64,000 nucleotides of DNA from Pseudomonas asgharzadehiana (GTDB taxonomy: Bacteria > Pseudomonadota > Gammaproteobacteria > Pseudomonadales > Pseudomonadaceae): the NCBI RefSeq assembly GCF_019139815.1, contig NZ_CP077079.1, positions 2,666,001 through 2,730,000 on the forward strand. The letters are read 5' to 3'. Below, in pieces: positions 42,575 to 46,273 of the stretch (within the stretch, counting starts at the first letter, position 1; the number at the start of each line of letters is the position of its first letter). The translations under genes and the position numbers were made by a program. The notes beneath the pieces are model-generated. The model saw only the letters and a program-made list of their open reading frames with translations, was not told where the DNA came from and searched no databases.

Positions 42575-42874
42575 TTAGGCCGAGGGCTTCATGCACTCGA
42601 TAGAGCGATCCACTGTGGTCCTGGCAATCTCCAGCAAATGCCACACCGCCAGAATCTTCGCGCGCTGAGGATTGTCGAGTGCCTCGCCGCAATCCAGCGC
42701 AGTTGCCGAAGCACTGTCGAGCAAACTGGCGGTGTAGAGCAGAGCATCTTCGAAGCTCAGGTCTTCGTTGATGGCGTGAAAGCCTTGGGTGGGCAAATAG
42801 TGGTCGATGGCGCGGTTAAAGGCGGCACGGTCTTTGGCGGGGTCGCGGGGTGGGTCGGGTAGGACTTTATTCAT
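42575..42874 (-). CDS. Small DUF3077/DUF6124-type protein
   Basis: A 99-residue soluble protein common in Pseudomonas, of unknown function. The N-terminal part is variable and Pro-rich (MNKVLPDPPRDPAK). The C-terminal half is a predicted helical pair (LSFEDALLYTASLLDSASATA and RAKILAVWHLLEIARTTVDR). The two small DUF families are alike and I cannot choose firmly between them. ATG 42874 follows AATAGGAG. It is preceded by a structured leader with an upstream ORF (42885-43004) that ends on the Shine-Dalgarno. It is transcribed in the same direction as rtcR, about 380 bases downstream, and no link is implied. Confidence 0.75.
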   Translation of the reverse strand: MNKVLPDPPRDPAKDRAAFNRAIDHYLPTQGFHAINEDLSFEDALLYTASLLDSASATALDCGEALDNPQRAKILAVWHLLEIARTTVDRSIECMKPSA

Positions 42875-42883
42875 TGTGTAACT

Positions 42884-43054
42884 CCTATTGAGCAAGGGAG
42901 CTACCGCCAACGCTGCTAAACGAGGGTGGCAGCTGTACGCGGGTTAGCAGACCGGTCAATAGGAAAACCAGCGCACCCGAGGGTGCCCCGCGCACAGCCA
43001 CCATAAAACGCAGAGGTGAACCGTGTGCCTATTGACGTCAGGCTGCTAAACCCG
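42884..43054 (-). ncRNA. Leader RNA with two mutually exclusive nested pairings
   Basis: Read on the minus strand. Segment A' (CTGCTAACCCG, 42950-42940) can pair upstream with CGGGTTTAGCAG (43054-43043) or downstream with GTTTAGCAG (42921-42913). Segment B' (CCTATTGAC, 42963-42955) can pair upstream with GTCAATAGG (43036-43028) or downstream with CAATAGG (42890-42884), which is joined to the gene's Shine-Dalgarno. Each alternative is properly nested. GGTGGCTGT (43002-42994) can also pair with ACAGC..CCACC (42936-42925), and a small hairpin lies at 42973-42986. The layout resembles an attenuator controlling ribosome access. The structure is inferred by eye. Confidence 0.6.
42885..43004 (-). 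CDS. 39-codon upstream ORF in the leader
   Basis: ATG 43004 opens a 39-residue frame (starting MVAVRGAPSGALVFLLTG, ending SSLAQ) whose TAG (42887-42885) lies within CAATAGGAG, the Shine-Dalgarno of the small DUF gene, ten bases before its ATG. Ribosomes finishing this frame would end on the next ribosome-binding site, allowing coupling or blockade. The frame runs through segments B', A' and C' of the leader, so its translation would melt the 5' hairpin. Its own Shine-Dalgarno is not obvious and an in-frame TAG lies nine codons upstream, so translation is unproven. Confidence 0.45.
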   Translation of the reverse strand: MVAVRGAPSGALVFLLTGLLTRVQLPPSFSSVGGSSLAQ

Positions 43055-43253
43055 ATCACTGAAATCCAGCGACGCAGCGAAGACTAGCCACCGATTGCAA
43101 CAGGCACAAGGCGGCGGAGATTGTCTAGGAAACGTCCTGCAATTAAAAGGGAGGCGCCTTGCTGGCCCTTTACAAGCCATGACCAAATGCAATTAGCCCC
43201 ACATGGAAAATACGGTGCGTGAGCGAGCGCCTGCGCCGCGATTACCACCTGCG

Positions 43254-44834
43254 CTACGGCTTCAACTGCTTCCAGTCAATCGAAAACCGCGCCAGGTATT
43301 TGCGCAGCCGATCCGCATCGTTCGGTTGCGCCTTGGCCTGGCGTGAGACGCCAAACAAGCGTCGGCCTGCATCGGACAGGCTGTCGGCTTGCAGGCATAC
43401 GTCGATGACGGCTTTGAGTTGTAGCTGGTCAAACAGATCCAGGTCGGCCGGCAGGCACGCGTGGGGTGCGCTGATGCCCCAGGCATAACGCAGGCGCTGT
43501 ATTTCTTCCTCGACCTGGGCTTGATCGATACGCCCGCTGTCGGCCAGGGTCGCCATGCGTGTGATGGAGGCGGACAGTTCGCGAAAATTGCCCAGCCACG
43601 CCGCTTCGCTGGAGCAGGCAAACGCCAGGTAGCGGCGCCGCGCTTCCAGGTTGAAACGTACGCGACGGCCTTGTTCGCGGGCGTGGCGCTCCAGCTCGAA
43701 GTCGAGGTTCGGCTCGATGTCTTCGCGGCGGCCCGCCAGGCCGGGCAGGTCGAAGGTCCATAGGTTGATGCGCGCGTAGAGGTCTTCGCGAAACAACCCG
43801 TCGGCGACCCGCTCGCGCAGGTCGCGGTGGGTGCCGGCGATGATCAGGAAGTCGCTGGCCACTTCGGTGTCGGCGCCCATCGGGTAGAAGCGTTTTTCTT
43901 CAATGGCCTTGAGCAGCATGGCCTGTTCGTCGAGGCCCAGTTCGCCGATTTCATCGAGGAACAGCATGCCACCGTGGGCGGCGCGCAACAGGCCGTCGCG
44001 GGCGTTTTGCGCGCCGGTGAAGGCGCCCTTGATATGCCCGAACAGCGCGGACATGGCGCCATCGCCGCGCAGGGTGGCGCAGTTCACCTCAACGAAGCGG
44101 CCCTGCAGTTGATGGCGGCTGCGCTTGAGTTCGTAGATGCGCCGGGCGAGGAAGGATTTACCGGCCCCGGTTGGGCCGATCAACAGCATCGGCGCGGTGG
44201 AGCGCACGGCCACGCGTTCGATCTGTTCGATGGAAGCGTTGAACGCAGGGTTGCGTGTGGCGATCCCGGATTTGAGAAACGCCAGGCCTTCCAGGCGCTG
44301 GTGGGCGAAACGCGAAGCGATGCGGTCGTAGCGCGACAGGTCGAGGTCGATCAGGGTGTGGGTGCCGGTGGCGGGTGCGTCGGCATCCAGGCGTCGGCTG
44401 GGGGAGGTTTGTATCAGGCGGGCCGGCAAGGTGCGCGCTTCGGTGAGCAGGAACCAGCAAATCTGCGCCACGTGGGTGCCGGTGGTGATATGCACCAGGT
44501 AATCCTCGCGCTCGGTGTCGAAGCGGTAGGCACTGGTGAAGTCGTGCAACGCGCCGTACACCTCTTCGAAATCCCAGGGATTGGCCAGCGGCATCGGGTG
44601 CAGGCGCACCTCGGTGTGGGGCGAGATCTGCTGGATGTCGGCGCGCACTCGCTCGGCAAGGCTGACATCGCGGGCGTCGACGTCGTGGATCAGTTCCAGG
44701 CGGTCGATCTGCAGATCATCCTGCTGGCACAGCCCGACGCTGGGGCGCCAGTGGTTCCAGCGATTGGCGCCCTTGCCGACGCGATCCAGCTTGGAACCGA
44801 TAAATCCGATGGCGACCGTGCGCTTGTGTTTCAT
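43254..44834 (-). CDS. rtcR: RtcR, sigma54 activator of the RNA repair operon
   Basis: A 526-residue enhancer-binding protein. The N-terminal RtcR/CARF-type domain (about residues 1-180) senses a signal from RNA damage. The central AAA+ domain has Walker A GPTGAGKS, the sigma54-contact loop GAFTGA and Walker [10 protein letters not shown]. The C-terminus is a diverged DNA-binding region. CARF domains bind cyclic oligoadenylates or linear RNA ends. It is divergent from rtcB, which has a sigma54-type promoter, as in E. coli. Full length, with ATG 44834. Confidence 0.95.
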
Positions 44835-44980
44835 GGCTGGACCAAAATATAAGTAACGATATGTAAGGATAGAAATAGGGGGATGGGTTTGTCATCGTTT
44901 TTCAGCGATAAAAAGATTGCGGATAAAAATAGTTATATAAAACAATCTATTACGTGTTTTTTAACGCCGAGCGTAAAACC

Positions 44981-44996
44981 TGGCACGTCTGCTGCT
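44981..44996 (+). promoter_or_regulatory. Sigma54 (-24/-12) promoter of rtcB-rlaP-rtcA
   Basis: TGGCACGTCTGCTGCT matches TGGCAC-N5-TTGCT with one mismatch in the -12 element (CTGCT). Transcription should begin near 45008, about 39 bases before ATG 45047. The adjacent RtcR is a sigma54 activator. The AT-rich stretch at 44840-44960 probably holds its enhancer sites. Confidence 0.75.
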
Positions 44997-45046
44997 GTCA
45001 CCAGCACGACGCCGTAACGACGGCTTTTCAAAAAAGAACCGAGATC

Positions 45047-46273
45047 ATGCAAAACAACACCTACCAACTGCTGGAAGTCGCCAACGGCAAACCGATCAAG
45101 CTCTGGACCGAAGGCGTTCCGGTGGAGCCCGAAGCTCGTCAGCAACTGATGAACACGGCCAGGATGCCGTTTATTTTCAAGCACCTCGCGGTGATGCCGG
45201 ATGTGCACCTGGGCAAGGGCTCGACCATCGGCAGCGTGATTCCCACCGTGGGCGCGATCATCCCGGCGGCGGTCGGGGTGGATATCGGCTGCGGCATGAT
45301 CGCCGCGCGCACCACGCTGATGGCCGGCGACCTGCCGGATAACCTGCATGGCCTGCGTTGTGCCATCGAGGCCGCCGTGCCCCATGGCCGTACCCGCAGC
45401 CGTAAAGGCCGTGACAAAGGCGCGTGGGAAGACGTGCCGGCCCAGGCCGATCAGGTATGGGCCACGTTGCATCCGCGCTTCAAGGCGATCACCGACAAGT
45501 ACCCGCAACTGGAGCGCAGCAACCACCGCCAACACCTGGGGACGTTGGGCACCGGCAACCACTTTGTCGAGGTGTGCCTGGATGAGGCCAACCGTGTCTG
45601 GTTCATGTTGCACAGCGGCTCGCGGGGCGTGGGCAATGCCATCGGCAACCTGTTTATCCAGTTGGCCCAGGCAGACATGCGTCAGCACCTGGCCAACCTG
45701 CCGGACCGCGACCTGGCGTATTTCGATGAGGGCAGCCAGCACTTCGATGACTACGTGCAAGCCGTGGGATGGGCTCAGGATTTTGCCCGGCAGAACCGCG
45801 AGTTAATGATGCGCGCGGTGGTCCAGGCCACGCGGCAAGTGATCAGCAAACCGTTTGAAGTGGCGCTGGAAGCGGTGAACTGCCATCACAACTATGTGCA
45901 AAAAGAGCGGCATTTTGGCGAAGACATCCTGGTGACCCGCAAGGGCGCGGTCTCCGCGAAAAAAGGCGAGTTGGGGATTATTCCGGGCTCCATGGGCGCA
46001 AAAAGCTTCATCGTGCGCGGGCTGGGCAACGAACAATCGTTCTGCTCGTGCAGCCATGGTGCGGGCCGCACCATGAGCCGCACCAAGGCGAAGAACACCT
46101 TTACCGTCGCCGACCAGATCCGCGCGACCGCCCATGTGGAGTGCCGCAAGGACGCCGATGTGATCGACGAAATACCGATGGCCTACAAGGACATCGACCG
46201 CGTCATGCACGCCCAGCGCGAGTTGGTGCAGGTGCTGCACACCTTGCATCAGGTGGTGTGCGTCAAGGGATAA
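45047..46273 (+). CDS. rtcB: RNA-splicing ligase RtcB
   Basis: A 408-residue Mn2+/GTP-dependent RNA ligase that joins 2',3'-cyclic phosphate or 3'-phosphate ends to 5'-OH ends. Metal ligands lie in AVGVDIGCGM, GTGNHFVEV and LHSGSRGVGN. The guanylylated His is in CSCSHGAGRTMSRTKAK. Start ATG 45047 (MQNNTYQLL) matches the family; the longer frame begins upstream of the sigma54 transcription start. The length suits the shorter bacterial RtcB branch. It is first in the operon rtcB-rlaP-rtcA. Confidence 0.96.
   Translation: MQNNTYQLLEVANGKPIKLWTEGVPVEPEARQQLMNTARMPFIFKHLAVMPDVHLGKGSTIGSVIPTVGAIIPAAVGVDIGCGMIAARTTLMAGDLPDNLHGLRCAIEAAVPHGRTRSRKGRDKGAWEDVPAQADQVWATLHPRFKAITDKYPQLERSNHRQHLGTLGTGNHFVEVCLDEANRVWFMLHSGSRGVGNAIGNLFIQLAQADMRQHLANLPDRDLAYFDEGSQHFDDYVQAVGWAQDFARQNRELMMRAVVQATRQVISKPFEVALEAVNCHHNYVQKERHFGEDILVTRKGAVSAKKGELGIIPGSMGAKSFIVRGLGNEQSFCSCSHGAGRTMSRTKAKNTFTVADQIRATAHVECRKDADVIDEIPMAYKDIDRVMHAQRELVQVLHTLHQVVCVKG

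Follow-up and report, generated by a model that had tools for sequence, protein, structure and literature searches.

What does the leader of a small DUF gene in Pseudomonas asgharzadehiana do, when parts of it can pair with each other in two different ways? The gene lies on the minus strand of the window, the stretch of 64,000 nucleotides that was analyzed (contig NZ_CP077079.1, positions 2,666,001 to 2,730,000). In a preliminary description, two central segments of its leader were proposed to pair either with upstream or with downstream partners, and the arrangement was compared to a translational attenuator with an upstream open reading frame. The paired segments are found on the minus strand where they had been placed, both alternative pairings are nested, and the last downstream partner, b2, is indeed joined to the Shine-Dalgarno sequence, which it overlaps. 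As the two pairings are mutually exclusive and one of the partners lies on the Shine-Dalgarno sequence, translation would be controlled by the pairing. This part of the proposal stands; the part that made the upstream ORF an attenuator is not supported, as neither its stop nor its frame is conserved. The features of the leader are as follows.

43109-43081, minus strand: promoter-like motif TTGTGC-N17-TAGTCT, recognized by consensus only, 5' of a1
43087-43035, minus strand: c4-a1b1 element (RF03163; sensitive Rfam scan, 36.3 bits, E 1.8e-7)
43054-43039, minus strand: second hairpin of c4-a1b1, with a1 in its loop region; the fold shows two hairpins
43049-43043, minus strand: a1, TTAGCAG, upstream partner of a' and complementary to it
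43035-43028, minus strand: b1, TCAATAGG, upstream partner of b' and complementary to it
43008-42922, minus strand: C4 antisense RNA (RF01695; Rfam 84.5 bits, E 3.4e-15, model positions 1-87)
42963-42956, minus strand: b' loop of C4, CCTATTGA, complementary to b1 and b2
42950-42944, minus strand: a' loop of C4, CTGCTAA, complementary to a1 and a2, covarying with a2
42919-42913, minus strand: a2, TTAGCAG, downstream partner of a', with 7 of 7 pairs changed on both sides
42908-42899, minus strand: candidate partner for an alternative stem with the 3' strand (42934-42925) of the outer stem of C4; weak at this locus
42891-42884, minus strand: b2, TCAATAGG, the partner of b' on the downstream side; it overlaps the Shine-Dalgarno sequence
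42886-42882, minus strand: Shine-Dalgarno sequence AGGAG, 7 nt 5' of the ATG at 42874
42874-42575, minus strand: DUF6124 (PF19619) gene, the predicted target, 99 aa (38.4 bits, cut-off 27)

Judged by its sequence, the leader is built like a C4 antisense RNA and not like an upstream-ORF attenuator. The central block matches the full C4 model at 84.5 bits, where the Rfam cut-off is 45, and by itself folds at -51.3 kcal/mol (z -6.5). Its loops a' and b' are complementary to a2 and b2, with b2 at the ribosome-binding site, and exact complements of both loops are repeated upstream as a1 and b1, although the c4-a1b1 score of 36.3 lies below the gathering score of 46.7. A weak match to isrK was also found in the leader by the sensitive Rfam scan. 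The preliminary description knew of no mechanism described for this small DUF family; because the central block is a C4 antisense RNA, however, a mechanism has been described, in phages P1 and P7. The C4 of these phages belongs to the same Rfam family as that of the window, and their icd-ant module (immI) has the same order of a1, b1, c4, a2, b2, and a small ORF, with b2 just 5' of the start; the P1 record is annotated accordingly with a1, b1, c4 (77 nt), a2, b2, and icd. Here, by contrast, the target is DUF6124 instead of icd and ant, so that the antirepressor of the phage module is not found at this locus, the cassette is chromosomal, and each genome carries many cassettes with different codes. 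Both c4 and c4-a1b1 elements have already been catalogued in Proteobacteria and phages, according to the part of Weinberg 2010 that was available (PMC2864571).

The pairing segments of the window form a two-part address, TTAGCAG-N5..34-TCAATAGG, which the 6.1-Mb genome contains in three places. All three lie within the DUF6124 leader: two are a1b1 and a2b2, and the third is the C4 core, read on the opposite strand. The reversed control pattern has no occurrence in the same genome. The address is thus unique to this leader.

To place the locus among its relatives, C4 elements were surveyed more widely. A C4 was found in 138 of 149 Pseudomonas genomes and matched in 24 of 369 genomes of the class, the P. 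asgharzadehiana genome being included in both counts; 33 of the Pseudomonas genomes reached the upper limit of 27 candidates scored per genome. With 150 candidates scored in each case, P. asgharzadehiana has at least 12 C4s and another Pseudomonas genome, G005, at least 42, of which at least 39 exceed the cut-off. From 233 loci, 19 gave no usable distinct C4 (duplicate, truncated, or without a match), and 219 distinct C4s were kept after that exclusion: 12 from P. asgharzadehiana, 73 reached through the DUF6124 protein in named genomes, and 134 from other Pseudomonas. This set is neither random nor independent, because the genus listing is biased towards high-scoring C4s and the named, DUF6124-derived set is dominated by a single a' code (CGACTAA, 64 loci).

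Both alternative pairings are maintained among these loci. The complement of a locus's own a' 6-mer is present in the a1 region of 212 of the 219 loci, in the a2 region of 208, and in both regions of 206, while the a' codes of other loci match the a1 region in 842 of 41,480 comparisons (2.0%) and the a2 region in 606 of 41,480 (1.5%). The loops are diverse: 28 different 6-mers occur as a', and b' comes in 132 different forms. For the downstream alternative, an alignment of 100 loci with at most 6 per a' code showed covariation of all seven a'-a2 pairs: 184 cells were changed on both sides, against 43 after shuffling, and 95.7% of the cells were paired, against 26-48% when one side was slid. 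Variation of all seven pairs was also seen in 47 of 500 shuffles, but the cell count and the score were reached in none of the 500. For the second loop, a run of at least 7 pairs joins b' to its own b2 in 67% of the 219 loci (3.1% for foreign loops) and to its own b1 in 38% (2.0% for foreign loops). Where the run with b2 is at least 6 pairs long, in 173 loci, it overlaps a Shine-Dalgarno-like motif in 151. Outside Pseudomonas, 20 loci were found in the class, 14 of them readable, with a1 in 13 and a2 in 12. Among 83 C4 places in viral sequences, 76 had a readable a', 71 of them together with a1 and 50 with a2; those where a2 was missed are mostly PAJU2-like contigs, in which the search used detected a1 but not the a2 6-mer. 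C4-like DNA was present in 9 Pseudomonas phage records, including that of PAJU2.

The covariation of a' and a2 fits action in cis and in trans alike, and the nested pairings are compatible with a cis attenuator, in which the transcript would flip between an a1b1-C4 and a C4-a2b2 structure, with the outcome decided by ribosomes that translate the 39-codon ORF. A related arrangement has been described, in the part of the report available (PMC4825925), for isrK-orf45-anrP of the Salmonella prophage Gifsy-1, which switches between two structures; its translated ORF, orf45, lies between isrK and anrP and is coupled to the latter. By analogy with orf45, translation of the 39-codon ORF is possible. 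This ORF is present at 43004-42885 on the minus strand, and its ATG is part of the C4 consensus, occurring in 208 loci. Third positions of the ORF frame carry 107 of the 253 substitutions in the first 36 nt of C4, a mild excess. The stops, however, scatter: among the 208 loci, 66 lie inside C4, 43 lie 0-20 nt behind it, 4 at 20-34 nt, 21 at 34-46 nt, and 74 beyond. A stop within the b2 region, as in the window, was found in only 8 of the 73 DUF6124-derived relatives and in 1 of the 12 P. asgharzadehiana loci. An ATGA overlap with the target start was seen in 12 of 206 loci, and the stop lies at most 15 nt before the start in 25. In addition, the b' loop varies in length from 9 to 16 nt, which shifts the frame of the ORF. 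A conserved leader ORF, as expected of a translational attenuator, was therefore not found across the C4 loci and was rejected, and we consider regulation by such a cis attenuator very unlikely.

How private are the codes? In a matrix of duplex energies calculated over long stretches, 5 of 12 rows had the C4's own downstream target in first place and 8 of 12 its own upstream region; this matrix was replaced by an ad hoc pairing score that considers the loops only. With this loop-only score, 10 of the 12 C4s of P. asgharzadehiana scored best on their own target, as did 11 of 12 when seen from the target; for G005, these numbers were 37 and 35 of 41. At a threshold of 33.5, the 10th percentile of cognate scores, cognate-like scores were reached by 0 of 132 non-cognate pairs in P. 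asgharzadehiana and by 8 of 1640 in G005, compared with 3 of 1681 pairs with shuffled targets. The two exceptions in P. asgharzadehiana, L005 and L012, lack a good own target. L005 has a poor b2, and L012 (3804554-3804640) has a C4 with its upstream b1 kept, without an a2 match and without a convincing target gene; both look like cases of loss of control and decay.

Another reading is that C4 mainly targets unlinked mRNAs or the leaders of incoming phages, with its own gene as a side target. Such action has been proposed for C4-like sRNAs of Acinetobacter in the part of PMC5320573 available, and a cognate-like score of at least 34 on a viral target is reached by 81 of the 219 C4s, although the viral contigs may include host-type cassettes. 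Against it, the exact two-part address of the window has no other site in the genome, and the best viral target of the window's C4 scores 29.5, compared with 38 for its own. We give this reading very little weight. Phage targeting was also considered for the P. asgharzadehiana C4s as a group and rejected: the best viral target scores 34.5 and belongs to L012, whose own target is lost, and those of the other 11 score at most 32.

The genes behind the C4s lie at a nearly constant distance. Outside G005, the ORF next to C4 starts 45-55 nt downstream (5th-95th percentile), with ATG as the start in 92 of 94 loci. About 50 nt after C4, we found genes for DUF6124, DUF3077, Bro-N antirepressor-like proteins, and small proteins without a family. 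A scan of 91 target proteins, the window's own and 90 from these 94 loci, assigned 28 to DUF6124, 14 to DUF3077 (some may match both), and 8 to Bro-N, and the 8 Bro-N proteins also match anti-repressor PHROGs. In 31 of the 94 loci, the first ORF after C4 fits the sequence pattern of a family of basic peptides, about 52 aa long (e.g., L120), that has no Pfam name, although one of these matches, L208, is doubtful and looks spurious. A second small ORF overlaps the end of this peptide by 4 nt in 27 of the 31 loci, resembling the P1 record, in which ant1 overlaps the end of icd (48688 vs 48691).

Conversely, a C4 lies about 50 nt upstream in 68 of 73 relatives of the window's DUF6124 gene, and of the 5 relatives without one, 2 are fragments or begin at a contig end. 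Within 500 bases of a C4 are 26 of the 32 DUF6124 and 5 of the 6 DUF3077 matches of G005, and 7 of the 8 DUF6124 matches of P. asgharzadehiana. For 6 of the 32 and 1 of the 8 DUF6124 matches, no C4 was found within this distance, and the gene family can therefore do without C4. The eighth DUF6124 match of P. asgharzadehiana is L018 (4034284-4034466), a gene without a C4 match upstream.

The DUF6124 protein itself gives few clues. Its closest named relative, in P. lactucae, is 99% identical. Its model contains helices at residues 12-26, 41-64, and 70-94 (mean pLDDT 78.7), and Foldseek returned nothing at E <=0.001 from PDB and BFVD, a helical hairpin being an uninformative shape. NCBIfam gave no match for the protein, and its best PHROGs hit (E 0.035) is a family of unknown function. 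Literature and database searches returned no described function for either DUF6124 or DUF3077; DUF6124 was not found in the literature, and for DUF3077 only a resequencing result was.

Since C4 is known from phages, and in viral contigs precedes Bro-N antirepressor-like genes (in many of them a 286-aa protein resembling Bro-N), the leader could be a decayed prophage remnant that stands before DUF6124 by chance and no longer acts; L012 has lost its target. Four neighboring proteins tested (RtcR, RtcB, DUF2867, and a GAF/sigma-54 regulator), however, do not belong to phage families, and 206 of 219 loci have retained the pairing. The DUF6124 frame is moreover under purifying selection, judging from the 1549 of 2368 substitutions that fall at third codon positions between 49 relatives and the window. 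We consider a decayed remnant extremely improbable. The DUF6124 protein had 0 matches in 50,697 phage and 72,556 plasmid records.

The unit that is homologous between relatives begins near 43200 and ends with the DUF6124 gene or with the repeat behind it. Directly 3' of the gene, at 42561-42458, lies a long inverted repeat (TGGGAGGGG... / ...CCCCTCCCA), which we take to be REP-like and which is possibly the terminator of the gene. Upstream of the cassette, at 43254-46273, the window encodes RtcR, a sigma-54 regulator of RNA repair, and the RNA ligase RtcB as divergent neighbors. Among the 73 relatives, RtcR stands beside the cassette in 4 (6 if a distant sigma-54 relative is counted) and DUF2867 in 2. 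Two cassettes occur in tandem at L022, and G005 carries three tandem C4-DUF6124 cassettes about 850 bases apart (3628473-3630617, L146-L147). At L092, the leader is 89% identical to that of the window and the protein 47%; recombination seems to treat leader and gene as modules.

A motif TTgtgC-N17-TA.tcT is common to 196 upstream stretches aligned on a1; in the window, its two halves are TTGTGC (43109-43104) and TAGTCT (43086-43081), on the minus strand. A terminator-like hairpin with a T-run between a1b1 and C4 was found in 59 of the 219 loci. In the leader of the window, five consecutive T do not occur between b1 and C4, and no terminator of the isrK type was found there. Downstream, the sequence separating a2 from b2 contains a second possible partner for the 3' strand of the outer C4 stem. 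Of the cells of this alternative stem in the alignment of 100 loci, 87.5% pair, compared with 85.1% after shuffling, and 38 cells are changed on both sides, compared with 16 after shuffling and 3-20 after sliding. Across 277 distinct loci, viral ones included, a locus's own strand paired better than one differing by at least 3 bases in 5333 of 6925 comparisons, worse in 1092, and equally in 500. The viral locus L331 has an 11-pair alternative stem with other letters; the stem is weak in P1 and in the window, where the pairing is interrupted (score 13.5). It is likely an alternative stem that would compete with C4 folding, and was not mentioned in the available parts of the C4 literature.

Taken together, and in the reading that we strongly prefer, the leader is a C4 cassette, with C4 lying between a1b1 and a2b2, that likely blocks translation of the DUF6124 gene through a2 and the Shine-Dalgarno-overlapping b2. 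By analogy with phages P1 and P7, a single transcript would carry all parts, RNase P would cut at the 5' end of the outer stem and so free C4, which would act in trans on the remaining mRNA. For P1/P7, the available part of PMC5320573, citing Hartmann 1995, reports processing by RNase P to an RNA of about 77 nt. By pairing a' with a2 and b' with b2, C4 would then block ribosome entry at the Shine-Dalgarno sequence. We infer that a1b1 may compete with a2b2 for C4, and surplus a1b1 RNA would therefore release the DUF6124 gene. Without a five-T run between b1 and C4, the role of competitor would fall to the leader itself and not to a terminated RNA of its own. The small helical DUF6124 protein would be under a switch that is off by default.

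Known systems share parts of this scheme. In Gifsy-1, as far as the accessible part of the report goes (PMC4825925), the upstream pairing RNA competes for sequences of the same operon, as a1b1 would, and activates translation in trans; a stable RNA of about 80 nt is processed from the orf45 region, which we infer to correspond to C4. Gifsy-1, however, has a terminator that gives rise to the short IsrK RNA, and an AUGA coupling of orf45 to anrP, neither of which is present in the leader of the window. In phage P4, the same partial source describes CI RNA as likewise processed from between two complementary sites, seqA and seqC, on one transcript; CI causes transcription termination, whereas b2 of the window lies on the Shine-Dalgarno sequence. 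The Group 1 sRNAs of Acinetobacter baumannii are likewise chromosomal, multi-copy C4-like RNAs with a variable a' loop, whose targets are left open in the part of PMC5320573 available, whereas the Pseudomonas C4s have a matching site before the next gene. A literature search, with subscription papers largely outside its reach, found no title on C4 control of DUF6124 or DUF3077. The chromosomal expansion of C4s with largely private codes, their link to DUF6124 and DUF3077, and the candidate alternative stem are apparently new.

A more speculative idea is that the self-addressed C4 switches, up to about 40 per chromosome, derive from a phage immunity RNA and serve as RNA sensors of phage infection. 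An a1b1 or target leader of a phage that matches the code would soak up C4 and release the silent small protein. We regard this as unlikely.

With the C4 cassette as the preferred reading, DUF6124 and DUF3077 gain a concrete predicted mechanism of control. The question of what chromosomal C4 RNAs target, as raised for Acinetobacter in the available part of that work, would for Pseudomonas most likely be answered by the gene directly behind C4. Finally, with 12 to about 40 nearly orthogonal antisense/target pairs per cell, these genomes may provide a natural test bed for the divergence of pairing codes after duplication.
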